From contig DXBF01000048.1 in assembly GCA_019116705.1 (NCBI GenBank), positions 1 to 42,537 on the forward strand: a DNA stretch of 42,537 bases, given 5' to 3'. Positions 11,653 to 30,095 of this stretch are shown here, piece by piece. The position numbers and the translations under genes were made by a program. Numbering within the stretch: the first letter of the stretch is position 1; every line of letters begins with the position of its first letter. The notes beneath the pieces are model-generated. The model saw only the letters and a program-made list of their open reading frames with translations, was not told where the DNA came from and made no database searches. The stretch comes from Candidatus Gemmiger avistercoris. GTDB taxonomy: Bacteria; Bacillota; Clostridia; Oscillospirales; Ruminococcaceae.

Positions 11653-11754
11653 GTACTTTCTTGGAAGAAAGTACCAAAGAACTTTTAACCAAAATCGCAC
11701 ATACGTGCGATTTTTATTAGAGTTTCTTTGGTTCTTTCTTTGCAAAGAAAGAAC
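11653..11754. repeat. Composite three-hairpin repeat, copy A
   Basis: Three consecutive inverted repeats: GTACTTTCTT/AAGAAAGTAC (11653-11674); a terminator-like stem AAAATCGCAC/GTGCGATTTT (11691-11714); and a perfect 24-base palindrome with arm GTTCTTTCTTTG (11731-11754). Short CAAAGAA-type linkers join them. It sits between the eamA stop and the ABC operon start, and the middle stem can act as a terminator on either strand. Confidence 0.85.
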
Positions 11755-11755
11755 C

Positions 11756-12664
11756 TCAATGTTTCCTGTCCGGCAACTGGCTGGCCACGATGGCCGCAAA
11801 CATCAGCGCGCAGCCCGCCAGTTCGGGGGGCGTCAGCGTCTGGCCCAGGATCAGCCAGCCCGCCAGCGCGCTGAACACGCTTTCCAGGCACATGGCCAGG
11901 CTGGCGATGGTGGGGTCCAGTTCCTTCTGGCCCACGATCTGCAGCGTATAGGCCACGCCGCTGGACATGACGCCGCAGTACAGCACCGACACCGCCGCCC
12001 CCTGGAACTGGGCCAGGGTGGGCTGCTCAAAGAGGAACATGCAGACGGTGGACAGCACCGACACCACCAGGAACTGTACGAAACTGAGCTGGATGCCGTC
12101 CAGCCGGGGGCTGAAACGGTTCACCAGCAGGATCTGCAGCGTAAAGAGGAACGCACAGACCAGCAGCTGCCATTCGCCGCCGGTCAGGCTCAGGGTATCC
12201 CGCCCGGCCAGGCAGAGCAGGTACAGCCCCGCCACGCTGGCCGCCACGCAGCACCACAGCTTGACGCCGGGCCGCCGCCCCAGAAAAACGCCGCACACCG
12301 GCACCAGCACCACATACAGGGCCGTCATGAACCCCGCCTTGGCGGTGCTGGTGGTGCCGATGCCCATTTGCTGGGCGGCCGAAGCCGCAAAAAGCGCCGC
12401 GCCGCACAGGGCCCCGCCCACCGCCAGCGTTTTGCCGTGGAGCCAGAACGGCAGGCGCTGGCCGCGGCGCTGCTGGCCGCGGCGGCGCACGGCCAGCAGC
12501 CCCAGCAGAAACACGCAGGCCAGCCAGCTGCGGCTGGCCAGGAAGGTATACGGCCCCATGTAGCCGCTGCCCACGCTCTGGGCCACAAAGGCGGTGCCCC
12601 AGATCAGCGCGCAGCCCACCAGCATCAGGGTGTTGCGCAGTTGTTTTTGGTTGGTCTTTTCCAT
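11756..12664 (-). CDS. EamA/DMT-family transporter
   Basis: 302 residues with ten predicted transmembrane helices in two EamA repeats. The first begins LMLVGCALIWGTAFVAQSVG, which has the family's WG motif. The second carries SGVAYTLQIVGQK and the closing PTIASLAMCLESVFSALAGWLILGQ, the conserved pair of helices in this superfamily. I place the start at the ATG at 12664 because GGGGAGGA lies just upstream; an in-frame start seven codons earlier has no such site. The family exports or imports small metabolites; the substrate here cannot be deduced. The stop abuts repeat copy A, which probably terminates it. Confidence 0.9.
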   Translation of the reverse strand: MEKTNQKQLRNTLMLVGCALIWGTAFVAQSVGSGYMGPYTFLASRSWLACVFLLGLLAVRRRGQQRRGQRLPFWLHGKTLAVGGALCGAALFAASAAQQMGIGTTSTAKAGFMTALYVVLVPVCGVFLGRRPGVKLWCCVAASVAGLYLLCLAGRDTLSLTGGEWQLLVCAFLFTLQILLVNRFSPRLDGIQLSFVQFLVVSVLSTVCMFLFEQPTLAQFQGAAVSVLYCGVMSSGVAYTLQIVGQKELDPTIASLAMCLESVFSALAGWLILGQTLTPPELAGCALMFAAIVASQLPDRKH

Positions 12665-12687
12665 ACTTCCTCCCCTTGGCGGCAAAA

Positions 12688-12721
12688 CTGCCCGCGCCGC
12701 CGCAGGGGGCAGCGCGGGCAG
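12688..12721 (-). terminator. Terminator downstream of the small lipoprotein gene
   Basis: A 14-base-pair GC-rich stem (12688-12701 with 12708-12721, one G-U pair) with a 6-base loop, followed on the minus strand by a short TTTT. Confidence 0.65.
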
Positions 12722-12737
12722 CGTCGTGGACGCCGGT

Positions 12738-13349
12738 TTATTCCTCTTCGATGGCAGTCAGTTCCTCGCTGCCCAGGCCCTGCACTTTGAGCCCGCCGGT
12801 GACATAGAAACTGCTGGAATCGTAGCTGATGTTGACCTTGTACTGTTTGCCGGGGGTCAGGCCGGTGATGGTGTAGCTGTAGTTGGTGCCGTCGGTGGGG
12901 TAGTAGATGGTGGACCCGGTCACATAGCTGGTGGTGGTGGAATCATCGGAAAGCTGCCACAGCGCCACCTTGAACGTCTGGTAATTTTCGTTGGTGGATT
13001 CGGTGGTCGCATAGCCGGTGACGGTGATGCTGTCCGACGCCGCCACGAAATAGTCGGTGTTGCGGTTCTGGATGCCGTTGAAGGCCACATACATCGTGTC
13101 CCCTTCCACCTGGGTGACCAGCTTGCCCTCGCTGGTGTCCATGCTTTCGGGGAAGGTCACGTCGCCGCCGGCCTGGGCCATCGTTTCGTTGGCTTCCTCC
13201 TCCTGCGACGCTTCGCCGTCGATGAAGCCCAGCGCCGTGCAGGCGCTGACGATGACGTTTTTCAGCGTCTCTTTGGGCGAACAGGCGGACAGGGTCAGCG
13301 CCAGACACAGGGCCAGCGCCCCCATGCTCAGAATGCGGGTACGTCTCAT
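12738..13349 (-). CDS. Small secreted lipoprotein of unknown function
   Basis: 203 residues. The start at 13349 is fixed by GGAGG 8 bases upstream and by the signal peptide MRRTRILSMGALALCLALTL with lipobox LSAC (Cys23). After a Glu-rich linker the mature part looks beta-rich. About residues 80-190 read like a single fibronectin type III-like fold (YTITGLTPGKQYKVNISYD). I do not recognise a named family. It would be anchored on the outer face of the membrane. It is a single-gene unit with its own promoter and terminator. Confidence 0.8.
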   Translation of the reverse strand: MRRTRILSMGALALCLALTLSACSPKETLKNVIVSACTALGFIDGEASQEEEANETMAQAGGDVTFPESMDTSEGKLVTQVEGDTMYVAFNGIQNRNTDYFVAASDSITVTGYATTESTNENYQTFKVALWQLSDDSTTTSYVTGSTIYYPTDGTNYSYTITGLTPGKQYKVNISYDSSSFYVTGGLKVQGLGSEELTAIEEE

Positions 13350-13392
13350 AAAATAAACCTCCGTGAAGGTGATCGTTGTGACATATACGGGT

Positions 13393-13421
13393 ATTATACC
13401 GCATTTGACGCACCGGCACAA
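13393..13421 (-). promoter_or_regulatory. Promoter of the small lipoprotein gene
   Basis: On the minus strand TTGTGC (13416-13421), 17 bases, TATAAT (13393-13398), about 45 bases ahead of the start codon. Confidence 0.75.
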
Positions 13422-13463
13422 GGTTTTTGCGAAAAATCCACAAAGGGCGGGCCGTCAAAAAAA

Positions 13464-13506
13464 GGTCCTCGCCGCCGGCCATAGCCGGCGGCGGGGACCT
13501 GTACCG
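13464..13506 (-). terminator. Strong terminator after the KdgK-like kinase gene
   Basis: A 16-base-pair stem with one G-U pair (13464-13479 with 13484-13499) and a CATA loop. On the minus strand it is followed by a run of seven T, complementary to the As at 13457-13463. Confidence 0.9.
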
Positions 13507-13557
13507 GGAGATCGGCCCCTGACCGTATGCGGGCCGCAGGGCGTTTTCCCGACAGGC

Positions 13558-14646
13558 TCACCGTTTGATGTCGTAGTTCATGTTCATCAGGTTGCGGATG
13601 CTCTGCACATCGTCGGTGATGTTGGCGTCGCCGTGGATGGTGTGCTTGATGACGCTGGACGCCACCGCAAAGTTGATCATATCCATGGGGCGGTAGTGGT
13701 GCATCATGGCGTAGATCAGGCCGCTGGCGAAGGCGTCGCCGCCGCCCACCCGGTCCAGCACGTTGAAGGTGTAGAGGCGGCTTTCAAAGGTATGGCCCTC
13801 GTACCACATGAAGGCTTTGAGGCTGTTCTCGCTGCCGGAGTGGACGTAGCGCACATGGCGGCCGATGCACTTGATGTTGGGGTAGCGCTCGATAAAGCGG
13901 TGGAAGATCTCGTCCTGCTCCTCATAGCTGGGCTGCAGGGGCACGCCGTCCTTCCAGTCGCCCTTGCTGTGGTCGCTTTCGTCTTTCCACAGGTGGTAAG
14001 GCTCGATGCCGAACAGCACGTCCACGTAGGGCAGGCAGAGGGTGCAGTAATCGCGGGCGGCCTCCCAGCTCCAGAGCTGGCTGCGGAAGTTGCCGTCGAA
14101 GCTGACGGTCAGGCCCTTCTCCTTGGCGGTGCGCAGGCAGCGCAGGATGAAATCGGCGCAGTTCTGGTTCAGCGCCGGGGTGATGCCGGACAGGTGCAGC
14201 CAGTCAAAGCCGTCGAACAGCGCGTCCAGGTCCACGGTGGAGAGGTCGAACTCGGTCAGGGCGCTGTGCTTGCGGTCGTAGATGACCTTGCTGGGGCGGA
14301 TGCCGTAGCCGGTCTCCAGATAATAGGTGCCCAGGCGGTGGGTGGGGGTCTGCTCTTTGCTGGAAAGGATCATCGGCGTGCAATGCACGTCGTTGGAGCG
14401 CAGCCAGCGGACGGCGCTTTTGCCCAGGGAGTTGTTGGGCACCACGCTGAAGAAGGTGGAGTCCACCCCCAGGTTGGCCAGCGCCAGGGCAATGTTGGCC
14501 TCGCTGCCGCCGTAGCAGGCTTCAAAGCTGGAGGCCATGCGGATCTTCTCGTAATTGGGCGGGGTCAGGCGCAGCATGACTTCGCCGATGGTGATGAATT
14601 TCTGCGGGCTCTGCTGGCCCTGCAGGATCGGATTGAAATGTTCCAT
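13558..14646 (-). CDS. PfkB-family sugar kinase, 2-keto-3-deoxygluconate kinase-like
   Basis: 362 residues. Near the N-terminus FITIGEVMLRLTPPNYEKI and CYGGSEANIALALANLG form the sugar-binding region; the C-terminal signature DRVGGGDAFASGL includes the catalytic Asp304. The MLRLTPP opening and overall length match bacterial KdgK, which phosphorylates 2-keto-3-deoxygluconate in uronate breakdown. Clostridial versions with an extended middle (here about 215-260) are common. GGAGG precedes the ATG. No aldolase or uronate genes are adjacent, so the substrate remains an inference. The gene is monocistronic, with a clear promoter and terminator. Confidence 0.82.
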   Translation of the reverse strand: MEHFNPILQGQQSPQKFITIGEVMLRLTPPNYEKIRMASSFEACYGGSEANIALALANLGVDSTFFSVVPNNSLGKSAVRWLRSNDVHCTPMILSSKEQTPTHRLGTYYLETGYGIRPSKVIYDRKHSALTEFDLSTVDLDALFDGFDWLHLSGITPALNQNCADFILRCLRTAKEKGLTVSFDGNFRSQLWSWEAARDYCTLCLPYVDVLFGIEPYHLWKDESDHSKGDWKDGVPLQPSYEEQDEIFHRFIERYPNIKCIGRHVRYVHSGSENSLKAFMWYEGHTFESRLYTFNVLDRVGGGDAFASGLIYAMMHHYRPMDMINFAVASSVIKHTIHGDANITDDVQSIRNLMNMNYDIKR

Positions 14647-14702
14647 AAACGGGGCACCTCCTGTTTTTTGGGGACGCTGGGGGTCGCGTATCTGTTGCTT
14701 CT

Positions 14703-14731
14703 ATTGTACGGCATTCCCGCCGGGATTGCAA
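14703..14731 (-). promoter_or_regulatory. Promoter of the KdgK-like kinase gene
   Basis: On the minus strand TTGCAA (14726-14731), 17 bases, TACAAT (14703-14708), about 55 bases ahead of the ATG at 14646. Confidence 0.75.
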
Positions 14732-14757
14732 GGTGATTCTTGCGCCGCAGCGGGCAC

Positions 14758-14793
14758 AAAAACGGCGGCCGTGCACCTGACGGCCGCCGTTTT
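14758..14793 (-). terminator. Terminator after ktrA
   Basis: A perfect 14-base-pair stem, AAAACGGCGGCCGT at 14759-14772 with its complement at 14780-14793, giving a T-run on the minus strand. It lies 48 bases after the ktrA stop. Confidence 0.88.
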
Positions 14794-14840
14794 GTCAAAT
14801 GTCTGCCCGCGCGGGGGAAAGCGCGCCCCCGGCCGCGCCC

Positions 14841-15515
14841 TTACTCTTCCAGATCCTGCTCGAAGCGGTCGATCTTGTCCACGTTGCCGATGACGGTGAT
14901 GGTATCGCCCTCGGCAAAGGTATAATCGGCGTTGAACTCCACATTGGTGTGGCCGTTGCGCTCCACCGCGATGATGTTGATGCCGTAGACCCGGCGCACA
15001 TCCACCTGCTGGATGGTGCGGCCCAGCACCCGGCCGCCCGCCGTGATGCGGCGCACCTCCACCCCGTCTGCCAGGGCGACGTAGTCCAGCAGGTTGCCGA
15101 AGATCAGGCGGCGGCCGATGCGCACGGCCATGTCGGCTTCGGGGAAAACGACGGTGGCGCCCATGCGCTTGAGCACCTCGCCGTGGACCTCGCTGGTCGC
15201 CTTGGAGATGACGTTGGGCACACCCAGCTTGATGACCAGCATGGTGGTCAGGATGCTCATGTCCACCTGCTCACCGATGCAGACGGTGACGGTGTCGCAG
15301 TTCTGGATGCCCGTTTCTTTGAGGGCGGCCTCGCTGAGGTTGTCCACCGTAAAGGCGTAGTCGGTATCGCCGCGCACCTCGCGGACTTTTTCCTCACACT
15401 TGTCGATGGCGATGACTTCTTTGCCCGCACCCGCCAGGGTCTTGACCAGCGCGGTGCCGAACCGGCCCAGGCCGATGACGCCGTAAAGCGCGGAGGATTC
15501 GTTCTTCTTCTTCAT
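14841..15515 (-). CDS. ktrA: KtrA/TrkA-type potassium uptake regulatory subunit
   Basis: 224 residues from the ATG at 15515, placed 8 bases after GGAAAGG; a GTG three codons earlier overlaps that site and is less likely. The N-terminal RCK domain is a Rossmann fold with YGVIGLGRFGTALV, an acidic residue ending the second strand (VIAIDK) and the conserved ISKATSEVHGEVLKRMGA stretch. The C-terminal about 80 residues form an RCK_C (TrkA-C) domain. KtrA forms a nucleotide-binding ring on the cytosolic side that gates KtrB, and its C-domain binds cyclic di-AMP in relatives. It lies 30 bases after ktrB in the same operon. Confidence 0.93.
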   Translation of the reverse strand: MKKKNESSALYGVIGLGRFGTALVKTLAGAGKEVIAIDKCEEKVREVRGDTDYAFTVDNLSEAALKETGIQNCDTVTVCIGEQVDMSILTTMLVIKLGVPNVISKATSEVHGEVLKRMGATVVFPEADMAVRIGRRLIFGNLLDYVALADGVEVRRITAGGRVLGRTIQQVDVRRVYGINIIAVERNGHTNVEFNADYTFAEGDTITVIGNVDKIDRFEQDLEE

Positions 15516-15545
15516 ACGTTGCACCTTTCCTGAATAATGGGGCGA

Positions 15546-16853
15546 TCAGCCGATGGTGATGGCTTCTTCGGTGTAGTGGGCGGCAGGCTCCGGCCGTTCC
15601 ACCCAGATGGACAGCAGCGTGAAGGCGCCGACGCGCCCGGTGTACATGGTCAGGATCAGCACGATCTTGCTGGGATCGCGCAGCGCGGAGGTGATGCCGG
15701 TGGACAGGCCGACGGTGCCGAAGGCCGAGACATCCTCAAACAGCAGCTGGATAAAGCTGTTCTGGGGTTCCAGCACGCAGAGCAGGAACGTGCCGGTGCA
15801 GACCACGATGAGGCCCAGCAGCGCCACGGTGGCGGCCTTGGCCAGCGACCCGCGGGGCAGGCGGCGGTGGAAGGCGCCGGGCTCCTTTTTGACGAAGATG
15901 CACCAGACCTCCTGCATGAGCACAAAGAAGGTCGTCGTCTTGATACCGCCGCCGGTAGATCCGGGCGAGGCGCCGATGAACATGAGGATGATGAGCACGA
16001 ACAGGCCCGCGTTGGTCAGTTCGCCCAGCGGCACGGTGGAGAAGCCCGCGGTACGCGCCGATACGCTGTGGAAGAAGGAGGCCAGCCACCCCAGGCGGTC
16101 GGTCCATTCCAGCAGCACGGTGCCGGAGACCAGCAGCACCAGCGTGGTGGTCAGCACCACCTTGGTGTGCAGGGTGAACTTGCGGAAGCGGAAGCGGCAT
16201 TTGGTCACGTCCAGGATGACCAGGAAGCCGATGCCGCCGAAGATGATGAGCGCGCAGGTGACCAGGTTCAGCCAGACATTGTCATGGTAAGGGATCAGGT
16301 TGCGCAGCCCGCCCAGGATATCGAACCCGGAGTTGTTGAACGCCGCTATGGAGTGGAACACGCTGATCCACAGCGCGTGCAGGGGCGGGAAATCCTGAAT
16401 AAAGACCGGGAAGCTGCAGATCACGCCGCCCAGCTCAAAGCAGAGGGTGACGAAAAGCACGCCCCGCACCAGGCGGACCATGCCTTCCAGGCTGTCCACG
16501 TTGAGGGCTTCCCGCACCAGGGTGCGGCTCTTGAAACCGATGCGCCGCCCGGCGGCCAGGGCCAGCCCCAGGCCGATGGAGGTGACGCCCAGGCCGCCCA
16601 CCTGGATGAGAGCCGCTACCACGGCCTGCCCGAAGGGGGTGAAGGTATCGGCGGTGTCCACGGCGATCAGGCCGGTGACGCAGACCGCGCTGGTCGAAGT
16701 GAACAGGGCGTCCACCCAGCTGACCGTGACCCCCGGCCGGGCGGCGACAGGCAGCAGCAGCAGCCCGGCCCCCAGCAGGATGACGAGGGCAAACCCCAGC
16801 GCGATCAGACGCGCCGGAGGCTGCCGCTTGAAAAAACGCAAAATTGATTTCAT
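15546..16853 (-). CDS. ktrB: KtrB/TrkH-type potassium transporter membrane subunit
   Basis: 435 residues, normal for KtrB, with about ten hydrophobic spans forming four M1-P-M2 repeats. The pore-loop filters are visible: TSTSAVCVTGL, FHSIAAFNNSGFD, SVSARTAGFSTV and DVSAFGTVGLSTG. The gating loop after the third pore is GASPGSTGGGIKTTT. The third filter is TAGF, as is common in this family. It takes up K+, usually with Na+ coupling in the Ktr type. AGAGG precedes the ATG. The gene leads the ktrB-ktrA operon and has a structured leader with an intrinsic terminator upstream, suggesting control by premature termination. Confidence 0.94.
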   Translation of the reverse strand: MKSILRFFKRQPPARLIALGFALVILLGAGLLLLPVAARPGVTVSWVDALFTSTSAVCVTGLIAVDTADTFTPFGQAVVAALIQVGGLGVTSIGLGLALAAGRRIGFKSRTLVREALNVDSLEGMVRLVRGVLFVTLCFELGGVICSFPVFIQDFPPLHALWISVFHSIAAFNNSGFDILGGLRNLIPYHDNVWLNLVTCALIIFGGIGFLVILDVTKCRFRFRKFTLHTKVVLTTTLVLLVSGTVLLEWTDRLGWLASFFHSVSARTAGFSTVPLGELTNAGLFVLIILMFIGASPGSTGGGIKTTTFFVLMQEVWCIFVKKEPGAFHRRLPRGSLAKAATVALLGLIVVCTGTFLLCVLEPQNSFIQLLFEDVSAFGTVGLSTGITSALRDPSKIVLILTMYTGRVGAFTLLSIWVERPEPAAHYTEEAITIG

Positions 16854-16876
16854 ACAGATCCCTCTGCGGCGTACAG

Positions 16877-16915
16877 AAAAAGCGGGGCTTCCTCACTGCA
16901 GGGGAAGTGTCCCGC
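16877..16915 (-). terminator. Intrinsic terminator inside the ktrB leader (possible attenuator)
   Basis: On the minus strand an imperfect stem (GCGGG and CTTCC pairing with GGAAG and CCCGC, 16882-16915) is followed directly by TTTTT (complement of As at 16877-16881). It ends only about 23 bases before the ktrB ATG and lies after the promoter, so read-through must be regulated or leaky. Confidence 0.7.
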
Positions 16916-16918
16916 CGC

Positions 16919-16994
16919 GCCGGGGACGCCGCTGGCCCCGGCCGCCCGGATAAATAGGGCAACATGGCCCTATGACAGACTCCACCACTTATCC
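16919..16994 (-). promoter_or_regulatory. Structured 5' leader of ktrBA, unclassified
   Basis: Two further hairpins lie between the promoter and the terminator. One is a GGATAA/TTATCC pairing (16948-16953 with 16989-16994) that encloses the perfect ATAGGGC/GCCCTAT hairpin (16954-16973). The other is GCCGGGG/CCCCGGC (16919-16925 with 16936-16942). The order promoter, folded domain, terminator, start codon is that of a riboswitch or attenuator. Potassium transporter genes of Firmicutes are often under cyclic di-AMP (ydaO) riboswitches, but I could not match that consensus. Confidence 0.5.
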
Positions 16995-17012
16995 CGGTCG
17001 TACAACGCCTCT

Positions 17013-17041
17013 ACCATAGCACGAAACCTCCGTTGCGTCAA
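17013..17041 (-). promoter_or_regulatory. Promoter of ktrBA
   Basis: On the minus strand TTGACG (17036-17041), 17 bases, TATGGT (17013-17018). Transcription would start about 150 bases before the ktrB ATG. Confidence 0.7.
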
Positions 17042-17122
17042 GAGGGAATGTACAAAAAACGGCGAAAGCCGGGAAAACCGCGCCGGAAAAGGATTTTTCC
17101 CGCCGCAGGCCCTCCCCGCCGC

Positions 17123-17151
17123 TTGCGCCCGCGCGGTAAATCATGTATAAT
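17123..17151 (+). promoter_or_regulatory. Promoter of the surface-polysaccharide cluster
   Basis: TTGCGC (17123-17128), 17 bases, TATAAT (17146-17151), about 100 bases ahead of the first gene. It diverges from the ktrBA promoter. Confidence 0.65.
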
Positions 17152-17251
17152 AAATTGTTACGTGAACGGAAGTTCCCGTCTTTTCCGCCGTTTCCCGGCG
17201 GAAAGCGCGGGGGGCTTCCCCCTCGAACGGTTTTGCATCGGAGGTGCGGCC

Positions 17252-18739: not shown

Positions 18740-18745
18740 CAACGC

Positions 18746-19190
18746 AGCTTCGCTGCTTCAAAAGGGGCAACACTCGCGCACGGCGGGGTACGCCCCCGCC
18801 CTACAAATAAAGGAAACGCGGGTGCTGCACCGGGTACCCACAGCAAGGCAAGATCGCACGGGCGGCGTGCACGCCGCCCCTACGGCCTGACGAAAATTTG
18901 CAATTTATAATTTTTGTTCGGGACCGCCGGAAGGCCGTAGGGCGGGGTCTTGACCCCGCCGCAGCGCGCGGCGGCAGGCGCGGTTTTGGTATTTGCCGCC
19001 CAAGGCCCCCTTGCGTGTAGGGGCGGCGTGTACGCCGCCCGGAAGCGTTGCGGCGGGCGGGAACACGGCGGGCAAGGCAAAATCCCACGGCGGGGTCAAG
19101 ACCCCGCCCTACAAATAAAGGAAACGCGGATGCGGCGCCGGGCGCTCGCGGCAGGGCAAAACTGCACGGGCGGCGTATATCCCGCACCAC
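18746..19190. repeat. Cluster of GC-rich palindromic repeats between MBOAT and SGNH genes
   Basis: This about 480-base gap has no convincing gene. It holds perfect 9-2-9 palindromes of two kinds: GGCGGGGTC-NN-GACCCCGCC at 18941-18960 and 19089-19108, and GGGCGGCGT-NN-ACGCCGCCC at 18860-18879 and 19021-19040. A truncated copy of the second kind begins near 19168. A degenerate copy of the first kind lies at 18782-18800. The degenerate copy and the one at 19089 are each followed by the same 21 bases (18801-18821 and 19109-19129), beginning CTACAAATAAAGG. A small GCAGC/GCTGC hairpin opens the region. Confidence 0.85.
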
Positions 19191-19221
19191 CCCGCACCAT
19201 TTGGAAAGGAGGGAACGGCCT

Positions 19222-21601: not shown

Positions 21602-21617
21602 CGCTCCTGTTTCCCCT
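21571..21617 (+). terminator. Hairpin spanning the stop codon of the glycosyltransferase-type gene
   Basis: An 11-base inverted repeat, AGGGGAAACAG (21571-21581) with CTGTTTCCCCT (21607-21617), flanks the TAA at 21599-21601 and is followed by CTTT. The U-run is weak, so it may only attenuate transcription or protect mRNA. Confidence 0.4.
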
Positions 21618-21637
21618 CTTTGGAATCCCCTTCGACA

Positions 21638-21699
21638 AAATCCAGCGCAAAATCGCGCACTCGTCGCAGACTCCTCGCACACAATTTTGTGCTGGATTT
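21638..21699. repeat. Inverted repeat with 16-base arms and 30-base loop
   Basis: AAATCCAGCGCAAAAT (21638-21653) pairs with ATTTTGTGCTGGATTT (21684-21699), with one G-U pair. There is no U-run, so it is not a standard terminator. It lies about 100 bases ahead of the flippase start. Confidence 0.75.
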
Positions 21700-21797
21700 C
21701 CCTGTATGTGTCCACGCCGTCGGCGCATGTCCGCCGGCGCGGACGGATTGGAAATACTCCCCTTTTCATCTGCACCCTGTGAAAGGAAGGTGGCCCC

Positions 21798-23288: not shown

Positions 23289-23323
23289 CCCGGCGCTTTG
23301 AAGCAAAAAGAAGGAGGCTTACC

Positions 23324-23896
23324 ATGAAACATTGCGGCACCCAAACGCTGGAGACCGGCCGCCTGCTGCTGCGGCGGCTGACGGTGGACGACTGCGAGAT
23401 GATGTACAACAACTGGGCCAGCGACCCGGAGGTAGCCCGTTTTGTGCGCTGGAACGCCCACCGCAGCTGGAGCGAGACCGCCGAACTGCTGAACGAGTGG
23501 GAAAAGCACTACCCTGACCCGGCCTATTACCAGTGGGGCATTACCGACAAGCGCAGCACCGTGCTGTTCGGGTCCATCAGCATTTTCCCGGCGACCGAGA
23601 TGACGGCCGGGTGGCACCTGAACACCGAGCGCCTGGGCGCCCAATGGGACGTGGGCTACGCGCTGGGCCGCAAATGGTGGGACCACGGCTATGCCACCGA
23701 GGCGCTGTGCGCCGTGCGGGACTACTGGTTCGGCACGGTGGGCGGGCAGTGGCTGGCCGCCTGCCACGCCAACGAAAACGTGGCCAGCGGCGCGGTGCTG
23801 CAAAAGGCAGGGTTCGTCTACGACCACGACGTGACCGACCACAAATTTGACGGCACGCCGGTGCCCTGCCGGGCGTACCGCTGCGTCAAAGAGTGA
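23324..23896 (+). CDS. GNAT-family N-acetyltransferase (RimJ/RimL-like)
   Basis: 190 residues. It has the RimJ-type opening LETGRLLLRRLTVDDCEMMY, a central strand DVGYALGRKWWDHGYATEALCA holding the acetyl-CoA-binding loop, and ACHANENVASGAVLQKAGFVY, the conserved Asn-containing helix. AAGGAGG lies 6 bases ahead of the ATG at 23324. It follows the flippase by 35 bases and may be cotranscribed, though such enzymes act on many amines and proteins. A role in sugar acetylation is only suggested by position. Confidence 0.88.
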   Translation: MKHCGTQTLETGRLLLRRLTVDDCEMMYNNWASDPEVARFVRWNAHRSWSETAELLNEWEKHYPDPAYYQWGITDKRSTVLFGSISIFPATEMTAGWHLNTERLGAQWDVGYALGRKWWDHGYATEALCAVRDYWFGTVGGQWLAACHANENVASGAVLQKAGFVYDHDVTDHKFDGTPVPCRAYRCVKE

Positions 23897-23902
23897 GCAG
23901 TC

Positions 23903-24083
23903 GTTCTTTCTTTACAAAGAAAGAACCAAAGAAATTCCAATAAAAATCGCACGCATGTGCGATTTTGGGTAAAAGTTCTTTGCTTACTTTCTTCCAAGAA
24001 AGTAAGCGGCTGCTTTCCGGCCATGACCCACTGACGGGATGAACGACGAAAAGTTCTTTGCTTACTTTCTCCAGGAAAGTAAG
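23903..24083. repeat. Composite three-hairpin repeat, copy B, plus an extra outer-hairpin unit
   Basis: The order is inverted relative to copy A: palindrome with arm GTTCTTTCTTT (23903-23926); terminator stem AAAATCGCAC/GTGCGATTTT (23943-23966), the same as in copy A; then CTTACTTTCTT/AAGAAAGTAAG (23983-24006). After a gap, a second AAAAGTTCTTTG plus hairpin unit follows at 24049-24083. Its right arm runs directly into GGAGG, the ribosome binding site of hflX. Confidence 0.87.
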
Positions 24084-24091
24084 GAGGTAGT

Positions 24092-25378
24092 ATGAGCGAT
24101 ACGATCGAACTGGATTTTGGCGCTACGGCGCAGAAGCGCACCGAAGGCGGCGCCCTGCCGGTGGTGCTGCTGGCGCTGGACCAGGGCCGGTATGATATGG
24201 ACCGCAGCCTGGACGAACTGCGGGCGCTGGCCGAGGCCAACGGCATGGACGCCGTGGCCGAAGTGGTGCAGAAACGCAGCGCGCCCGAAGCCGCCACGCT
24301 GCTGGGCGCCGGCAAAGTGGAGGAAGCCCGGCTGGTCTGCCAGAACGTGCAGGCGGCCGCCGCCATCTTTGACGGCGAACTGACCGGCAGCCAGATCCGC
24401 AACCTTTCGGCGGCGCTGCAGGTGGAAGTGCTGGACCGCACGCTGCTGATTCTGGAGATTTTCCGCGCCCGGGCCACCACCAACGAGGGCAAGCTGCAGA
24501 CCGAGCTGGCCCTGCTGCGCTACCAGCTGCCGCGGCTGCAGGGCCTGGGCGAAAGCCTGAGCCGTCAGGGCGGCGGCGGGGCCGGGGGCGGCGGCGCGCG
24601 CCGCGGCGCGGGCGAGACCAAGCTGGAACTGGACCGCCGCCACCTGCACCACCGCATCGAACACCTGGAACAGCGGCTGTCGGAACTGGAAAAGCGCCGG
24701 GGCGAGACCCGCCGCGCCCGCCGCAAAAACAACGTGCCGGTGATCGCCCTGGTGGGCTACACCAACGTGGGCAAATCCAGCCTGCTGAACGCCCTGTGCG
24801 GGGAACAAATTTTTGAGGCCGACATGCTCTTCGCCACGCTGGACCCCACCGCCCGCAAACTGACGCTGCCCAGCGGCCTGCAGACGGTCCTGGTGGATAC
24901 CGTCGGTTTCGTCAGCCGCCTGCCCCATCACCTGGTGGAAGCGTTCAAGAGCACGCTGGAGGAAGCCGCCTACGCCGATGTGATCGTGAAGGTGGCCGAC
25001 GCCTCCGACCCGCAGGCCCCCGAACAGCTGGCCGTTACCGACGAGGTGCTGGCCACGCTGGACTGCGGCGGCATCCCCCAGCTGGTGGTCTACAACAAAT
25101 GCGACGCCGCCAACCTGATCCCGCTGGACCCCGGCCTGCTGCTGACCAGCGCCAGGACCGGCCGCGGCCTGCCGGAACTGCTGGCCCGCCTGGACGAAGT
25201 GCTGGCCCACCGGGTGCGCGGCATCGAGGTGCTGCTGCCCTACGACAAACTGGCCCTGGCCGACGTGCTGCGCAGCCGCGGCAGCGTGGCCGCCGAGGAA
25301 TACCGCGAGACCGGCGTGTACTACCGCGCCACCGTCAAGATCGACGACCTGCACCGGTTCGAGCCGTACCTGGTCTGA
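24092..25378 (+). CDS. hflX: Ribosome-associated GTPase HflX
   Basis: 428 residues, the usual length. The N-terminal HflX domain (about 1-175) includes EVVQKRSAPEAATLLGAGK. A Gly/Arg-rich linker (GGGGAGGGGARRGAGETKLE) follows, then a coiled stretch with LDRRHLHHRIEHLE. The GTPase domain has G1 GYTNVGKSSLL from about residue 222, G3 DTVGF and G4 NKCD. HflX splits stalled 70S ribosomes under stress and recycles subunits. The ATG is preceded at 4 bases by GGAGG contributed by the adjoining repeat. It is not obviously part of an operon with its neighbours. Confidence 0.96.
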   Translation: MSDTIELDFGATAQKRTEGGALPVVLLALDQGRYDMDRSLDELRALAEANGMDAVAEVVQKRSAPEAATLLGAGKVEEARLVCQNVQAAAAIFDGELTGSQIRNLSAALQVEVLDRTLLILEIFRARATTNEGKLQTELALLRYQLPRLQGLGESLSRQGGGGAGGGGARRGAGETKLELDRRHLHHRIEHLEQRLSELEKRRGETRRARRKNNVPVIALVGYTNVGKSSLLNALCGEQIFEADMLFATLDPTARKLTLPSGLQTVLVDTVGFVSRLPHHLVEAFKSTLEEAAYADVIVKVADASDPQAPEQLAVTDEVLATLDCGGIPQLVVYNKCDAANLIPLDPGLLLTSARTGRGLPELLARLDEVLAHRVRGIEVLLPYDKLALADVLRSRGSVAAEEYRETGVYYRATVKIDDLHRFEPYLV

Positions 25379-25379
25379 G

Positions 25380-25408
25380 TTGACAGCGCCCGCCGGGACC
25401 GCTATACT
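25380..25408 (+). promoter_or_regulatory. Promoter of gltX
   Basis: TTGACA (25380-25385), 17 bases, TATACT (25403-25408), starting 2 bases after the hflX stop and about 45 bases ahead of the gltX ATG. Confidence 0.8.
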
Positions 25409-25451
25409 TTCGATAGAACGACACCGTACAAACGATAAAGGGGTTACGATT

Positions 25452-26897
25452 ATGGCATCCAACGTCCGCACCCGGTTTGCGCCGTCGCCCACCGGCTACA
25501 TGCACGTGGGCAATCTGCGCACCGCATTGTACACCTATCTGCAGGCCCGCCACAACGGCGGCGCCTTCATCCTGCGCATCGAGGACACCGACCAGGGCCG
25601 CTATGTGGAGGGCGCCACCGACATCATCTACGATACGCTGCGCGCCACCGGCCTGACCTGGGACGAAGGTCCCGACGTAGGCGGCCCCGTCGGCCCCTAT
25701 GTGCAGAGCCAGCGCATGGGCATGTTCAAGCAGTATGCCGAGCAGCTCGTCAAGGCGGGCAAGGCCTACTACTGCTTCTGCACCGAGGAACGCCTCAACG
25801 AACTCCACGAAGCCCAGCGCGCCGCAGGCGAAATGACCCACTACGACGGCCACTGCCGCGACCTGAGCGCGGAGGAAGTGGCCGCCAAGCTGGCCGCCGG
25901 GGAACCCTACGTCATCCGGCAGAAGATCCCCGAAAGCGGCGTGGCCGCCTTCGACGACGTGGTCTACGGCCACATCGAGGTGAACGTCAGCGAACTGGAC
26001 GACCAGATCCTCATCAAGACCGACGGCATGCCCACCTACAACTTCGCCAACGTGGTGGACGACCACCTGATGGGCATCACCCACGTGATCCGCGGCAGCG
26101 AGTACCTGTCCAGCACGCCCAAGTACAATCTGCTGTACGACGCCTTCGGGTGGGAGAAGCCGGTCTACATCCACTGCCCGCCGGTGATGAAGGACGCGCA
26201 GAACAAGCTGTCCAAGCGCAACGGCGACGCCAGCTACCAGGATCTGGTGGCCAAGGGCTACCTGCCCGCGGCGGTGCTGAACTATCTGCTGCTGCTGGGC
26301 TGGGCCCCCGAGGGCGAGCAGGAGATCTTCAGCCTCGACGAGATGGTGAAGATCTGGGACCCGGCGCGGATCTCGAAGTCCCCGGCCATCTTCGACCCGC
26401 TGAAGCTGCGAGCCATCAACGCGGCCTACATCCGCGCCCTGCCCCCCGAGGAGTTCCGCCGTCTGGCTGACCCCTTCATCAACAGTGCCGTGCACCGTGA
26501 CATTGACCGGGACCTGCTCTGCGCCAACCTGCAGCCCCGCTGCGAAGTGCTGGAGGACATTCCGCCGCAGCTGGACTTCTTCGACGCGGCGCTGCCCTAC
26601 GACGCGGAACTGTACCGCAACAAGAAGCAGAAAACCACGCCGGAAAGCGCCAAAGAAGCCCTGGCCGCCCTGCTGCCGGTATTGGAGGGCGTGACGGACT
26701 GGACCCGCGACGCCATCTTCGACGCCTGCAAGGCCCAGGCCGAAGCGATGGAAAAGAAAAACGGCTGGCTGCTGTACCCGCTGGGCATCGCCCTTTCGGG
26801 CAAGGCCCGCACGCCGGGCGGCGGCACCGACCTGGCCGCCATGCTGGGCCGGGAGGAAACGCTGGCCCGCGTCCGCGCCGCGCTGGCGGCGCTGTAA
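25452..26897 (+). CDS. gltX: Glutamyl-tRNA synthetase
   Basis: 481 residues from the ATG at 25452, preceded by AAAGGGG. The class I HIGH motif is HVGN (residues 18-21, after RFAPSPTGYM) and the KMSKS loop is KLSKR (252-256, before NGDASYQD). The catalytic Rossmann core is followed by an all-helical anticodon-binding half. The enzyme charges tRNA-Glu, and often tRNA-Gln in organisms that use transamidation. It stands alone under its own consensus promoter, with composite repeat C, which contains a strong terminator, immediately after. Confidence 0.96.
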   Translation: MASNVRTRFAPSPTGYMHVGNLRTALYTYLQARHNGGAFILRIEDTDQGRYVEGATDIIYDTLRATGLTWDEGPDVGGPVGPYVQSQRMGMFKQYAEQLVKAGKAYYCFCTEERLNELHEAQRAAGEMTHYDGHCRDLSAEEVAAKLAAGEPYVIRQKIPESGVAAFDDVVYGHIEVNVSELDDQILIKTDGMPTYNFANVVDDHLMGITHVIRGSEYLSSTPKYNLLYDAFGWEKPVYIHCPPVMKDAQNKLSKRNGDASYQDLVAKGYLPAAVLNYLLLLGWAPEGEQEIFSLDEMVKIWDPARISKSPAIFDPLKLRAINAAYIRALPPEEFRRLADPFINSAVHRDIDRDLLCANLQPRCEVLEDIPPQLDFFDAALPYDAELYRNKKQKTTPESAKEALAALLPVLEGVTDWTRDAIFDACKAQAEAMEKKNGWLLYPLGIALSGKARTPGGGTDLAAMLGREETLARVRAALAAL

Positions 26898-26903
26898 GCA
26901 TCC

Positions 26904-27020
26904 GTCCTTTCTTTGCAAAGGCGGACCAGAGAAACTCCAAACAAAAAACGGATAGAGGGCGCGCCCTCTATCCGTTTTTTATGGAAAGTTCTTTTCGCCC
27001 TTTTCTTTCAAGAAAAGGGC
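26904..27020. repeat. Composite three-hairpin repeat, copy C
   Basis: Outer hairpin with GTCC/GGAC ends around TTTGCAAA (26904-26926); a central perfect palindrome of 38 bases, A6-CGGATAGAGGG and its complement (26943-26980), a strong bidirectional terminator; then GCCCTTTTCTT/AAGAAAAGGGC (26997-27020). It lies between the converging gltX and the membrane XRE gene. The central stem has a different sequence from all other copies. Confidence 0.88.
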
Positions 27021-27024
27021 AAGA

Positions 27025-28068
27025 TCAGCCATAGGTCTGCCAGAGTTCTTGCAGATCCGTGTCCCATTGCGCCTGTGTCTGTTGGCTATCCGGCAGCGCG
27101 GTCAGGTCGATCTGCTGTTCCGGCGAACCCGTCACCGTCACCTCGATGTTGAAATCCCGGTCGCCGCTGCACTGGACCAGATAATACTGCATCTCGTCCG
27201 GGGCACCGGGCTGCCAGGTCAGCCGGATGCGGAAGTCCCGCGTCCGAATGTGGGTCGCCGGTTCGCCGGTCACCCCCCGCGCTACTACCAGATACCGCTT
27301 TGTGATGCGCTCCCCCGGTACAGGCCCGCCGATGCACAGCGCACAGGGCGTTTCCTGCATCAGGGCGCTGTCGTCTATCCGTTGTACCAGCGCCGGATAT
27401 TGCCGCACCGCCGTCTCGGTCAGCGGCACCAGCGCGTCCACGCGGTACCCGGCCCCGGCCAGCCAGAAGAAGTAGGCGAACACCGCCGCCACGGCCAGCG
27501 CCGCCAGCTGCACGCCGACGGCTTTCAGCCCGCCCCACAGCGCCGGGGCGGCAGAATGGCCGCGCACCTTGCACACCACGGCCCAGGCGGCCACCGCCGC
27601 CACCGTGACCAGCAGCAAGTACGCCCCCGCCACCGCCGTGAACACGTAGGTCACCAGCGAGAGCAGGCAAAAGACCACGCACAGCACCGCCAGCGCCACC
27701 AGCCACGGGCGGCTTTTTCTCCCTTTGCCCGTGCTATCCGGGGCAGCCGGTTTTTCCGGCACAGGCGGTTCCGCCGCCTTCCCCGTTTCCTCTGCGCCCG
27801 CCGGGTCCGGCGGAACATCCGCTGCCTGCGGCGTTTCCTCCGGCGTGTTTTGCACCGCGCCCTCCGCAGGTTCAGGCGGTTCGGGCAGGGCGTCGCCGAG
27901 GCATTGGCGCAGGGCCAGCAGGTTGCCGGGGCCGGGCAGGGCCGCGCCCCGTTCCCATTTGGCGACGGCCTGCCGCGATACGCCCACCCGTTCGGCCAGG
28001 GATTCCTGGGTCCAGCCCCGGGCGCGCCGGGCGGCGGCCAGCTGCCTGCCCCATTCTGCTGCCGTCAT
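27025..28068 (-). CDS. Membrane-anchored XRE-family regulator with extracytoplasmic domain
   Basis: 347 residues from the ATG at 28068 (AGG upstream); an in-frame start 18 codons earlier lies on top of the promoter's downstream region and is less likely. Residues 1-55 are a clear Cro/C1 helix-turn-helix (RRARGWTQESLAERVGVSRQAVAKWERG). A Pro/Glu-rich linker (about 60-115) leads to three predicted membrane helices (about 119-225). The last about 120 residues would then be outside the cell. The layout suggests a one-component sensor that binds DNA at the membrane. I do not recognise the outer domain. Confidence 0.82.
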   Translation of the reverse strand: MTAAEWGRQLAAARRARGWTQESLAERVGVSRQAVAKWERGAALPGPGNLLALRQCLGDALPEPPEPAEGAVQNTPEETPQAADVPPDPAGAEETGKAAEPPVPEKPAAPDSTGKGRKSRPWLVALAVLCVVFCLLSLVTYVFTAVAGAYLLLVTVAAVAAWAVVCKVRGHSAAPALWGGLKAVGVQLAALAVAAVFAYFFWLAGAGYRVDALVPLTETAVRQYPALVQRIDDSALMQETPCALCIGGPVPGERITKRYLVVARGVTGEPATHIRTRDFRIRLTWQPGAPDEMQYYLVQCSGDRDFNIEVTVTGSPEQQIDLTALPDSQQTQAQWDTDLQELWQTYG

Positions 28069-28112
28069 GCTGTACACCTGCCTTTCCGTTTGGTTTCCCT
28101 TTGTCTGACTCC

Positions 28113-28141
28113 ATCGTAGCATATCCGGCCCCGGTATACAA
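28113..28141 (-). promoter_or_regulatory. Promoter of the membrane XRE gene
   Basis: On the minus strand TTGTAT (28136-28141), 17 bases, TACGAT (28113-28118), about 45 bases ahead of the ATG. Confidence 0.65.
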
Positions 28142-28194
28142 GCAACCCCGCGCTACTTTCCGCTACCGCGCGCCCCGGACCGGGGGATCGCCTT

Positions 28195-28313
28195 GTTCTT
28201 TCTTTGCAAAGGCGAACCAAAGAAACTCTCAACAAAAACCGGGGGTATGGCGTATGCCATACCCCCGGTTTTTCATCGAAAGTTCGCTCGTCCTTTTCTT
28301 ACAAGAAAAGGAC
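28195..28313. repeat. Composite three-hairpin repeat, copy D
   Basis: Outer hairpin with GTTC/GAAC ends around TTTGCAAA (28195-28217); central 18-base-pair terminator stem containing CCGGGGGTATGGC (28234-28273, loop GTAT); then GTCCTTTTCTT/AAGAAAAGGAC (28290-28313). Its left flank (from about 28173, CCCCGGACCGGGGGATCGCC) recurs near copy E. It fills most of the 28069-28382 gap; the rest holds the XRE promoter and nothing else I can identify. Confidence 0.88.
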
Positions 28314-28382
28314 CAGAACAGGCGTCCTTCCGGACGATCGCACAGGCTGCTTTTGCCATACAGGTTGCCCCTGTGGTTTCCC

Positions 28383-28748
28383 TCAGGATCCCTGCGGCGC
28401 TTTTTGAGAATCGCCTTTCCGCTTTTTTCGGGGCCCTGCCTGGAAGGCGGCCTTCGCTTTTTGGTAAAACCGGCGCAGCACCGCAAGGGTCTTTTGATCG
28501 TTGGGGAACAGCAGCTTCAAAAGCCCCAAAGCGATCGCAAACGTCGCTATTTTTTCCGGCGACAGGGGCAGCCAGAGAAATGCGATGTACGCCCCGGAAA
28601 CAGCGGTCATCCAGGGGATCTTTTCGGCGGTGCCGATGGCGAACAGAATGTACGACCAGCCGTTTGTGATCAACCATGCCAGCGCAATACAGAAAAGCAG
28701 GCGGGGATTGGTGATGAAGCGAAGGATCTTTTTGATTTTTTCTTTCAT
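28383..28748 (-). CDS. Small conserved-looking membrane protein
   Basis: 121 residues with two or three hydrophobic segments (LLFCIALAWLITNGWSYILF, MTAVSGAYIAFLWLPL, IATFAIALGLLKLLF) and a basic C-terminal tail (PRKKRKGDSQK). Similar small proteins with an ITNGW motif occur in clostridia, but I know of no function. Its ATG overlaps the TGA of the upstream gene (28745-28748), so translation is coupled. Base composition is less GC-rich than the flanking chromosome, like the rest of this cassette. Confidence 0.75.
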   Translation of the reverse strand: MKEKIKKILRFITNPRLLFCIALAWLITNGWSYILFAIGTAEKIPWMTAVSGAYIAFLWLPLSPEKIATFAIALGLLKLLFPNDQKTLAVLRRFYQKAKAAFQAGPRKKRKGDSQKAPQGS

Positions 28749-29077
28749 TTGTTATTTTTTTCGGCGCCTGTGTTCTGCACGGCGTAGCCCTGTGTGGCGG
28801 GGGCGGATGTACCGGCGTTTGCCATGGAGGCTTCCGCCGGTTCCGGGCGAAGAGGGCCGCCGGACCGGGCGGCTCTTTGCTTTTGGATCTGCGCCCTTCG
28901 GCGGGCAATGTACGCACGGGCAGCGGACGAAGAAGCCCCCGGGGCGGGTGTGCTTGCCGCCCGGTCATCGCACGTTATGCGGGTGGGCTTTGCGGTGTCC
29001 CGCGTCAACACATACAGCAGAAATCCCCCCACGACCGAACCGGCGCCGAGTAAAAAATACTTCCATTTTTCTTTCAT
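28745..29077 (-). CDS. Small single-pass membrane protein of unknown function
   Basis: 110 residues from the ATG at 29077 (AAAGGG upstream). One hydrophobic helix at the N-terminus (KYFLLGAGSVVGGFLLYVL) is followed by a hydrophilic tail rich in Ala, Arg and Gln, with YIARRRAQIQKQRAARSG. An in-frame ATG at 29161 has a better site (GGAGG, 8 bases away) and would add 28 residues that look like untranslated sequence; which start is used is open. It overlaps the next gene by 4 bases. No family recognised. Confidence 0.62.
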   Translation of the reverse strand: MKEKWKYFLLGAGSVVGGFLLYVLTRDTAKPTRITCDDRAASTPAPGASSSAARAYIARRRAQIQKQRAARSGGPLRPEPAEASMANAGTSAPATQGYAVQNTGAEKNNK

Positions 29078-29183
29078 GATATGCCCTTTCTGTAAAGTGT
29101 TCGGTATACGCTCCCGCAGGGGTCGGACGCCCCGCGGCAATGGCCCACATACCGGCTGCATGGGTCTCACCTCCTGTGGTCCT

Positions 29184-29297
29184 TCAGCAATTGCAAATTT
29201 CGTATCGCATACAAAGGGACAGGATATTGGGCAGGGTCAGGAACCGATCCTCTTTCTTTTTATCGAGATATTTGTTGGTGGTTTTGCGTCTTTTCAT
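29184..29297 (-). CDS. 37-residue micro-ORF, possible remnant of a CDP-alcohol phosphatidyltransferase
   Basis: An ATG at 29297 with GGGAGG upstream opens a 37-codon frame, MKRRKTTNKYLDKKKEDRF, continuing LTLPNILSL and ending EICNC. The LPNILSL string resembles the conserved start of CDP-alcohol phosphatidyltransferases (PgsA/cardiolipin-synthase type), but the reading frame stops at once and no catalytic motif follows. It may be the stub of a deleted gene or a genuine small protein. It sits between the marR gene and the small membrane genes on the same strand. Confidence 0.4.
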   Translation of the reverse strand: MKRRKTTNKYLDKKKEDRFLTLPNILSLCMRYEICNC

Positions 29298-29372
29298 AAA
29301 CCCGCCCCTCCCTGTGACGGACTGCGGCGCCGATCGGCCCGCCCTTGACGGCGTATCGATCGGCCGCCCCTG

Positions 29373-29825
29373 TTACAGTTCCGCTTTTCCTGTGATCTCT
29401 TTTCTGAATTTGAGGATAAATTTGTCCAGCATGGAGAGACAGGCCTGCAGTTCCTGCAGATCCGCATCCTCCATCGCCCGCTGCTCGGCCGCAAAAATCC
29501 ACATCACGTGTTCCAGGCCAAAAGCCGATCCGGCGTCCGTCAGGCGCACCACTTTGCGGTTCCGGCTGCCCGGGCAGTGTTCCAGCACAACAAAACCTTT
29601 GCGGACCAGTTTGGAAATGATCGTGTTTACGGTCTGCTTGGAAAGGAACAGCAGTTCCGACAAATCTTGCTGTGAATACTCCCGCTCCGAACCAAGCAGC
29701 AGGGACCAGATGGCGACCTCGCCGTCTGGAATGCCGGATTTGGCAGCCGCTGTATGATACAGCGAATTGATCTCCTTGGTCCTTTGGGTGATCGCGTCGA
29801 TCCCGCGCTGTGTGTTCCGATCCAT
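29373..29825 (-). CDS. MarR-family transcriptional regulator
   Basis: 150 residues, normal for MarR. The winged helix is clear: YSQQDLSELLFLSKQTVNTIISKLVRKGFV, followed by the wing RNRKVVRLTDAG, with flanking dimerisation helices at both ends. AGGAGG lies ahead of the ATG at 29825. The promoter contains two palindromic sites made of the same half-site, so it almost certainly represses itself and whatever follows (the micro-ORF and two small membrane proteins). The inducing ligand is unknown. Confidence 0.9.
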   Translation of the reverse strand: MDRNTQRGIDAITQRTKEINSLYHTAAAKSGIPDGEVAIWSLLLGSEREYSQQDLSELLFLSKQTVNTIISKLVRKGFVVLEHCPGSRNRKVVRLTDAGSAFGLEHVMWIFAAEQRAMEDADLQELQACLSMLDKFILKFRKEITGKAEL

Positions 29826-29842
29826 ACTCTGCCCCTCCTGTT

Positions 29843-29894
29843 AACATCCGACATCGGATGTTACTATTATAGTCCGAACTCGGATGTTTGTCAA
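29843..29894 (-). promoter_or_regulatory. Consensus promoter with two MarR operators
   Basis: On the minus strand TTGACA (29889-29894), 17 bases, TATAAT (29866-29871). A perfect palindrome AACATCCGA-CA-TCGGATGTT occupies 29843-29862, just after the -10. A second, partly degenerate site (TCCGA-AC-TCGGATGTT, 29873-29889) fills the spacer. A dimer at either site would block RNA polymerase. Confidence 0.88.
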
Positions 29895-29976
29895 GAAGCC
29901 TTTTGCCTGCCTTTCCCGTTTCTTCCTCCCCCATGGCGGCAGCAAAGAGCCCCGGACCGGGGGATCGCCTGTTCTC

Positions 29977-30095
29977 GTCCTTTTCTTGTAAGAAAGGGAC
30001 CAGCGAACTTCCCATAAAAAACCGGGGGTATGGCATACGCCATACCCCCGGTTTTTGTTGGGAGTTTCTTTGGTTCGCCTTTGCAAAGAAAGAAC
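29977..30095. repeat. Composite three-hairpin repeat, copy E (inverted relative to copy D)
   Basis: GTCCTTTTCTT-type hairpin with slight mismatch (29977-30000); the same CCGGGGGTATGGC terminator stem as copy D with loop ATAC, the complement of D's GTAT (30017-30056); then the GTTC/GAAC hairpin around TTTGCAAA (30073-30095). CCCCGGACCGGGGGATCGCC lies on its left flank and a related sequence on its right. It lies between marR and the EF-G-like gene. Confidence 0.88.

Follow-up and report, generated by a model that had tools for sequence, protein, structure and literature searches.

The 42,537-nucleotide (nt) contig DXBF01000048.1 of Candidatus Gemmiger avistercoris (GCA_019116705.1), called here the window, contains five copies of a dispersed element in which a terminator-like palindrome stands between two outer hairpins, each joined to the center by a short linker. 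We found that the linkers follow a mirror rule: the pyrimidine linker 5′ of a hairpin repeats the apical part of that hairpin's 5′ arm in reversed order, without complementation. According to PMC4666352, a mirror-symmetric polypurine-polypyrimidine tract is the condition for H-DNA and for intrastrand triplexes. The end units of the element thus appear capable of forming an intrastrand triplex, judging from their sequence. The whole is probably an extragenic element like REPINs (repetitive extragenic palindromic [REP] doublets forming hairpins) and bacterial interspersed mosaic elements (BIMEs), with a bidirectional terminator between triplex-capable, unlike ends.

The five copies, A to E, are present where a first-pass annotation of the window had placed them. 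Aligned in one orientation, they share the plan hairpin, linker, terminator stem, linker, hairpin. The two kinds of end are called X and Y, and G004 and G165 are closed genomes of relatives. The features are as follows.

11653 to 11754, minus strand: copy A, whole element (X2 end, terminator, Y1 end); each linker mirrors its hairpin.
11731 to 11754, plus strand: X hairpin of copy A, with mirror linker TTTCTTT at 11723 to 11729.
11691 to 11714, no strand: putative bidirectional terminator stem of copy A.
11653 to 11674, plus strand: Y hairpin of copy A, with its linker at 11675 to 11682.
23903 to 24006, plus strand: copy B, whole element (X2..Y1); the gap is without the element in G004 and G165.
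23943 to 23966, no strand: putative bidirectional terminator stem of copy B.
24049 to 24083, plus strand: half copy, Y linker and hairpin only (E 0.25), extending into the presumed ribosome-binding site of an HflX-like gene.
26904 to 27020, plus strand: copy C, between convergent gltX and a helix-turn-helix (HTH) gene; X end degenerate, Y-end mirror intact.
28195 to 28313, plus strand: copy D, which together with E makes up an inverted duplicate; Y-end linker degenerate.
29977 to 30095, minus strand: copy E, 3′ of an EF-G (fusA-like) gene; the element in the gltX/EF-G gap of G004 aligns with it.
27024 to 29973, no strand: stretch from C to E (HTH gene, copy D, MarR-like open reading frame [ORF]), not in the orthologous G004 gap.

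Four classes of end could be distinguished by arm and linker: TTTCTTT/TTTCTTT, CTTCTTT/TTTCTTC, TTTTCTT/TTCTTTT, and (C)TTTCTT/TTCTTT(G). To count matches we used 139 distinct inner modules, picked by a hairpin plus TTCTT in the linker region, a selection that favors some match. The mirror match was 7/7 in 95 of these modules, 6/7 in 28, and less in 16. Because of the TTCTT selection, what was tested was the pairing of linker with arm, by permuting the linkers. The 131 modules with the two main cores had a mean match of 6.52/7; permuted linkers gave a mean of 5.88 and a largest value of 6.07, and none of 2,000 permutations was as high, although this control is not a full test because the copies are related. 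Across 49 elements, linkers matched their own hairpin at 6.23/7 versus 4.54/7 for the hairpin at the other end. The three bases concerned (arm, partner, linker) were T-A-T in 46, C-G-C in 28, and other in 10 of 84 X ends. Among 47 Y ends they were T-A-T in 20 and C-G with a linker G in 23, where the mirror stops after six positions; four departed. Direct-repeat linkers were considered and rejected: a direct match of 7/7 occurred in 50 of the 139 modules, 47 of them with the self-mirror core, versus 95 for the mirror match.

The rule was also found in two sets of elements with other sequences. Sister species of the same genus carry near dnaA an element of the same plan but other sequence, which we call the T-family. 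A pattern written for it matched 122 times, in 16 of the 35 genus genomes; the reversed pattern, meant as a control, gave 35 in 6 of these, which is hard to take as background because the motif is nearly mirror-symmetric. Hairpin and linker had T-runs of equal length in 26 of the 29 ends with a recognizable linker (4/4 in six, 5/5 in eighteen, 6/6 in two); the loci from the pattern search had been selected as 5/5, which does not apply to the 4/4 and 6/6 ends. All nine two-ended T-family elements, from six genomes, had unlike ends (4 and 5, or 5 and 6). In these the linker followed its own hairpin at 18 of 18 ends and the other hairpin at none. Linkers of the T-family are therefore tied to their own hairpin, not to the opposite linker.

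The second set is in G029, a draft genome of the same order but another family, of which 366 kb were examined after a weak match to the model described below. Here we found five hairpins, each of the form T-run, C, T-run on a four-pair base, and in every case the linker too consists of two T-runs separated by a C. Linker run lengths agreed with the purine strand read in mirror order in all five (6,3; 3,6; 5,4; 5,3; 5,4) and read in direct order in none. These ends have mirror runs of 9 to 10 bases, offering 9 to 10 triads (L334 226-344; L344 ~16700; L350 ~13172; L351 ~12219). One pair of hairpins on contig C103 makes a two-ended element, again with unlike ends; no strong terminator stem was seen in its center. 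The same run-length scan applied to stretches of the host genome (G000), G004, and G165 found equal runs in 47 of 50 linkers; 34 of these, being symmetric, are uninformative.

Unlike ends are also the rule in the host genus. Of 27 compact elements (≤120 nt between hairpin centers), 26 have an X end opposite a Y end, and the last has a mutated Y-like end; X-X combinations occur only above 200 nt. Inverted pairs of potential intrastrand triplexes (PITs) likewise always join type A with type B (PMC4666352). The paired changes in the outer hairpins that the first-pass annotation had seen in five copies hold across 49 compact elements, so that covariation persists in a larger alignment. Two-sided changes occurred at 9 of 12 pairs among 14 distinct X hairpins (96.4% standard pairs) and at 8 of 12 pairs among 12 distinct Y hairpins (95.8%). 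Next to several CCTAC-type ends come half-hairpins in tandem (e.g., TGCAAAGAAAGTAGG).

The center consists, in all five copies, of an A-tract, a GC-rich stem, and a T-tract, and so is terminator-like on both strands. By sequence it is a likely bidirectional Rho-independent terminator, which would halt transcription arriving from either side. The stems vary with pairing kept: there were 20 distinct ones among 26 compact X1-Y2 elements. Orthologous gaps hold differing centers, and one center occurs at two loci of one genome; centers are therefore exchanged or rewritten. In the window the stems are shared as first described, A with B and D with E, with C different. The modular plan proposed at that time, conserved ends around an exchangeable terminator, was right; the mirror linkers, the unlike ends, the in-place inversion, and the origin zone had no part in it. 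Using crude ORF calls, we classified the contexts of 39 two-ended elements as convergent (23), codirectional (14), divergent (1), and unclear (1), rough numbers since at least two calls, for the HflX flank of copy B and the gltX flank in G165, were wrong. Many elements start 0 to 30 nt from a stop codon.

Comparing G004 with G165, we found nine common gaps with X/Y elements, of which five were inverted relative to their flanks and four were not; of the latter, one had a match in a single direction only. No inversion was seen in a tenth gap, which has an X2..X1 element. Among eleven genomes (54 elements, 49 after removal of duplicates, other end combinations dropped), compact X/Y elements were seen in both orientations at 8 of 9 gaps. 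Behind dnaA the asymmetric interior of the element, compared by eye, was inverted too, which indicates a flip and not a replacement. The inverted allele there is shared by G165 and G018, which are not sisters in a dnaA plus gltX tree, and may represent one event plus transfer. In both genomes (L192 and L189, respectively) the inverted element keeps a half-hairpin remnant outside an intact end. In one gap the central loop alone was inverted. As a single case, a rearrangement junction of the host versus G004 and G165 lies exactly in an element (G000:C39, ~33232-33356), as if two copies had recombined.

The extent of the family was estimated with a covariance model built from the five copies and run against the host draft genome and its relatives. 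Copies beyond the five, whose absence would have spoken against a family, were found in both. The host gave 69 rows at E ≤ 1, both strands counted, and 26 nonoverlapping places at E ≤ 1e-3 on 10 of 69 contigs (our count). Of 41 genomes, the host and 40 relatives, 11 had a match at E ≤ 0.01: 10 of 25 genus members and G029, with its one weak match. Two further genus genomes, G164 and G165, gave 39 and 38 rows, those of G165 representing 22 distinct places, and G161, outside the model search, has an element 3′ of dnaA. GltX was at least 91% identical to that of the host in carriers and at most 89% in the other genus genomes tabulated; the carrier G019 yielded no GltX. When 119 genomes sampled from the family were searched with stricter filters, matches occurred only in the host's own genome and in G056 (E 1.7e-4), where two hairpins obey the mirror rule poorly, at most 6 of 8. 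A search of 43 of 80 fetched dnaA loci gave nine rows of unlike sequence (best E 0.003). Viral contigs had no match to one exact 32-base pattern, which a diverged copy would escape. The closest DnaA in a collection of named genomes was that of Faecalibacterium prausnitzii (70% identity), and in the partial coverage of the literature we recognized no paper describing this element. The repeat sequence is restricted to one genus clade, and the plan is found elsewhere too. Other Oscillospirales metagenome-assembled genomes have unlike, A/T-rich palindromes of the GAAACTTTTT type repeated near dnaA (L116 15313-19881; L158 16491-16635).

In two related closed genomes the element is concentrated around the replication origin. 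In G004 all 23 end-pattern matches lie between −269 and +349 kb from dnaA (Rayleigh P ≈ 4e-10), and in G165 all 22 places lie between −271 and +621 kb (P ≈ 6e-9); in these tests some matches are the two ends of one element. End modules numbered 44 in 440 kb of the G004 origin zone and 0 in 360 kb elsewhere; for G165 the corresponding counts were 46 (340 kb) and 0 (60 kb). The frequencies of other long palindromes per 10 kb, in the zone versus elsewhere, were 0.95 versus 0.78 in G004 and 1.03 versus 1.50 in G165. Sampled GC skew suggests that the G004 terminus is near 3.1 to 3.2 Mb, opposite dnaA; clustering at the terminus was ruled out, as dnaA is inside the cluster. Of 114 T-family matches in 13 draft genomes, 25 were on the dnaA contig versus 1.12 expected, a count that leaves out 8 matches of G004, G163, and G011 and in which matches are not mutually independent. 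Host contigs C13, C39, C8, C23, and C19 map to the origin zone, and C59, with two weak matches, maps to 2.08 Mb of G004; C38, C41, C16, and C52 found no placement with the stretches fetched.

A second repeat occupies the same zone. It is a GTAG-tagged palindrome (GTAGGGCGGGGTCTTGACCCCGCC) resembling the GTAG superfamily of REPs, here in a genus of Clostridia, with two copies in the window.

18937 to 18960, plus strand: GTAG-tagged palindrome.
19089 to 19112, minus strand: GTAG-tagged palindrome.

With up to two mismatches it was found 74 times in the host (some being two strands of one palindrome), 16 times in G004, and 23 times in G165. It was within 400 nt of an end module in 14 of 18 cases in G165 and 6 of 12 in G004, and its distance from a mirror-linker end is often about 100 nt.

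The copies in the window differ in quality and independence. With their flanks, D and E are a single 161-nt inverted duplicate (28173-28333 and 29957-30117, 89%) and therefore are not independent copies. The TTTGCAAA hairpins are imperfect in C, D, and E, and the half copy at 24049-24083 is additional to the five first reported. All five were said to lie directly after gene 3′ ends; this is evident for A, B, C, and E; D is 5′ of the HTH gene and has as its other neighbor an ORF without assignment. Between gltX and EF-G, G004 has a single element that aligns with both C and E; the host gap is 2.9 kb longer, with D inside, and includes the MarR-like ORF (29373-29825, minus strand). In the same gap G013 has about 1.1 kb between two elements (L025, L035). 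A perfect TTGACA-17-TATAAT promoter-like site is upstream of the MarR-like ORF, beside copy E (29894-29866, minus strand).

Several observations weigh against a REPIN/BIME-like element with triplex-capable ends. The triads of the host genus are short (6 to 7), and 7-nt motifs probably arise by chance, as stated in PMC4666352. The spacer includes the basal pairs, so a triplex and the full hairpin would compete, and the stability of the triplex is uncertain. In minimum free energy (MFE) folds the linker of one end pairs with that of the other. Because the copies are related and their linkers were chosen by TTCTT, the permutation result overstates their independence. As given above, 10 of the 84 X and 4 of the 47 Y ends do not obey the mirror rule, and the 23 Y ends with C-G and a linker G at the seventh position have no canonical triad there. 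Runs were unequal in 3 of 29 T-family ends (4/5 in two, which are both strands of one hairpin, and 5/6 in one) and in 3 of 50 linkers of the stretch scan. Copies D and E are degenerate. Synteny breaks fell at elements in 2/8, 1/5, and 2/6 cases versus 2.0, 1.0, and 1.5 expected by chance, and the elements were rejected as rearrangement hotspots, junctions not being enriched at them. Finally, 16 of 17 GTAG-tagged cores in G004 and 28 of 28 in G165 (where 60 kb outside the zone were examined for them) are in the same origin zone, which therefore is not specific to the element.

The first-pass annotation had suggested a non-autonomous mobile element that delivers terminators. Such an element would be REPIN- or miniature inverted-repeat transposable element (MITE)-like and moved by a transposase, with terminators as its cargo. 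We consider this rather unlikely as an account of the family, although spread by mobility is plausible. Copies are dispersed and nested, the two ends are inverted palindromes, and half-hairpin remnants are found outside several ends. When orthologous gaps were compared, as that annotation had proposed, gap B proved to be without an intact element in G004 and G165 and gap A in G004; in the latter, a CAAAGAAA stretch may be what is left of one, which makes loss possible. Many sites, however, are orthologous and conserved between species. In a search confined to the Y1 transposase family PF01797 (E ≤ 1e-5), no match was found in 7 of 13 carriers, including G001 and G161 (99% complete); 6 of the 13 had matches, G165 having seven. 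No end module was found within about 1.5 kb on either side of 21 PF01797 loci, and these two results give no support to a RAYT/IS200 partner. No target-site duplication was noticed. No Y1/RAYT transposase accompanies the elements, so their mobility is putative.

A structure without any triplex, in which the linkers are constrained by pairing with each other to form a large cruciform or three-way junction around the terminator in RNA or DNA, seems improbable. It agrees with the MFE folds of A and B, which pair CAAAGAA with TTCTTTG. But the linker-linker duplex energy was −5.84 versus −5.80 for permuted partners, and 106 of 300 permutations were as good. The nine unequal T-family elements, whose linkers follow their own hairpin and not the opposite end, speak against it, as do the single ends of G029, which do the same.

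We also doubt, to a similar degree, that the element serves to organize or protect the origin part of the chromosome, as origin-proximal binding sites do. All G004 and G165 places are in the dnaA zone, and other palindromes are not enriched there. Against this, the GTAG-tagged repeat shows the same confinement, G004 and G165 have ancestry and positions in common, and host contig C59 maps to 2.08 Mb of G004, with C38, C41, C16, and C52 unplaced.

That the copies encode a processed small RNA or sponge family, the other early suggestion, is very improbable and gained no support from any result. The RNA folds are stable (single-strand folds of eight strands, both of A, B, and D and one of C and E, were 7.0 to 10.3 standard deviations below dinucleotide shuffles), but the symmetry, free inversion, stop-codon proximity, and swapped centers argue otherwise, a tRNA was the sole Rfam match in the window at the gathering threshold, transcripts ending at the center would hold only that strand, and a purine-motif triplex is impossible in RNA, according to PMC4666352.

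Compared with known systems, the element is best filed as a REPIN/BIME-like repeat with a terminator spacer and PIT-like units. BIMEs combine two unit types (Y and Z) in one element. The likeness to these systems (PMC3116915 and PMC3733652) lies in two inverted palindromic units, a variable structured spacer with compensatory changes, extragenic location, many copies, and singlets as remnants. Our 39 two-ended elements have the inverted palindromic units and structured spacer of the REPIN plan. Unlike REPINs and BIMEs, however, they lack the GTAG/CGTC foot of the REP superfamilies, the feet being mirror linkers such as TTTCTTTG and TTCTTTTG; a RAYT was not found, the spacer is a probable bidirectional terminator, the ends have mirror linkers, and the element keeps to the origin zone and flips in place. 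PIT, BoxC, and TM_ECO denote an intergenic, repeated single-strand triplex motif that is G/C-rich with 9-nt stems and has no terminator activity; E. coli K-12 has five inverted pairs, and an apparent bias toward the origin halves of the replichores is reported for K-12 only (PMC4666352). The element shares the defining arrangement of intrastrand triplex motifs of classes II and IV, a third segment in mirror register with a hairpin arm, but it is T.A.T-rich with 6 to 7 triads in the genus (9 to 10 in G029), surrounds a terminator, and has T/A-rich cores in place of G/C-rich 9-nt stems, as judged from the listed sequences and not from a pattern scan. Because the defining features tested were absent, the element belongs neither to the GTAG/CGTC REP families nor to TM_ECO. 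With bidirectional Rho-independent terminators it shares the central stem with A and T tracts and the location at convergent gene ends, and by sequence the five copies have the GC-rich stem followed by a T-tract on both strands that marks an intrinsic terminator. Ordinary terminators, however, are not flanked by conserved hairpin/linker units and do not form a repeat family. In chloroplast DNA, small inversions occur at hairpins, where a segment flip-flops between short inverted repeats near gene ends. There the loop flips, whereas here the whole 100-nt unit with its unlike ends does so and, separately, the central loop.

If the ends form triplexes, then in single-stranded DNA the linker would occupy the major groove of the hairpin it belongs to, as class IV on one strand and class II on the other (PIT nomenclature). 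Triplex or hairpin ends opened at replication forks would favor strand switching and copying between elements, and such switching would account for the in-place inversion, the exchange of central stems, and the local spread in the origin zone. Unlike ends would prevent the formation of a perfect, unstable palindrome. A broader reading, which we put forward only tentatively, is that these are a natural kind of DNA element, present in at least two bacterial families, whose three strands covary (T.A:T to C.G:C, and in run lengths) because the three-stranded hairpins themselves are selected; bounded by its two different triplex ends, each element would be a small invertible unit, copied and flipped at forks near the origin and carrying interchangeable terminators.

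The role of intrastrand triplexes in living bacteria is an open question, and TM_ECO, the motif studied most closely, shows very little sequence variation. In the present elements the putative third strand changes together with the hairpin it belongs to, among several classes of end as well as in a sister family of elements and in a second family of bacteria, and a test for selection is therefore possible. In-place inversion between close species at mapped gaps offers a natural assay for hairpin-driven inversion, and the elements illustrate the exchange of terminators as modules.

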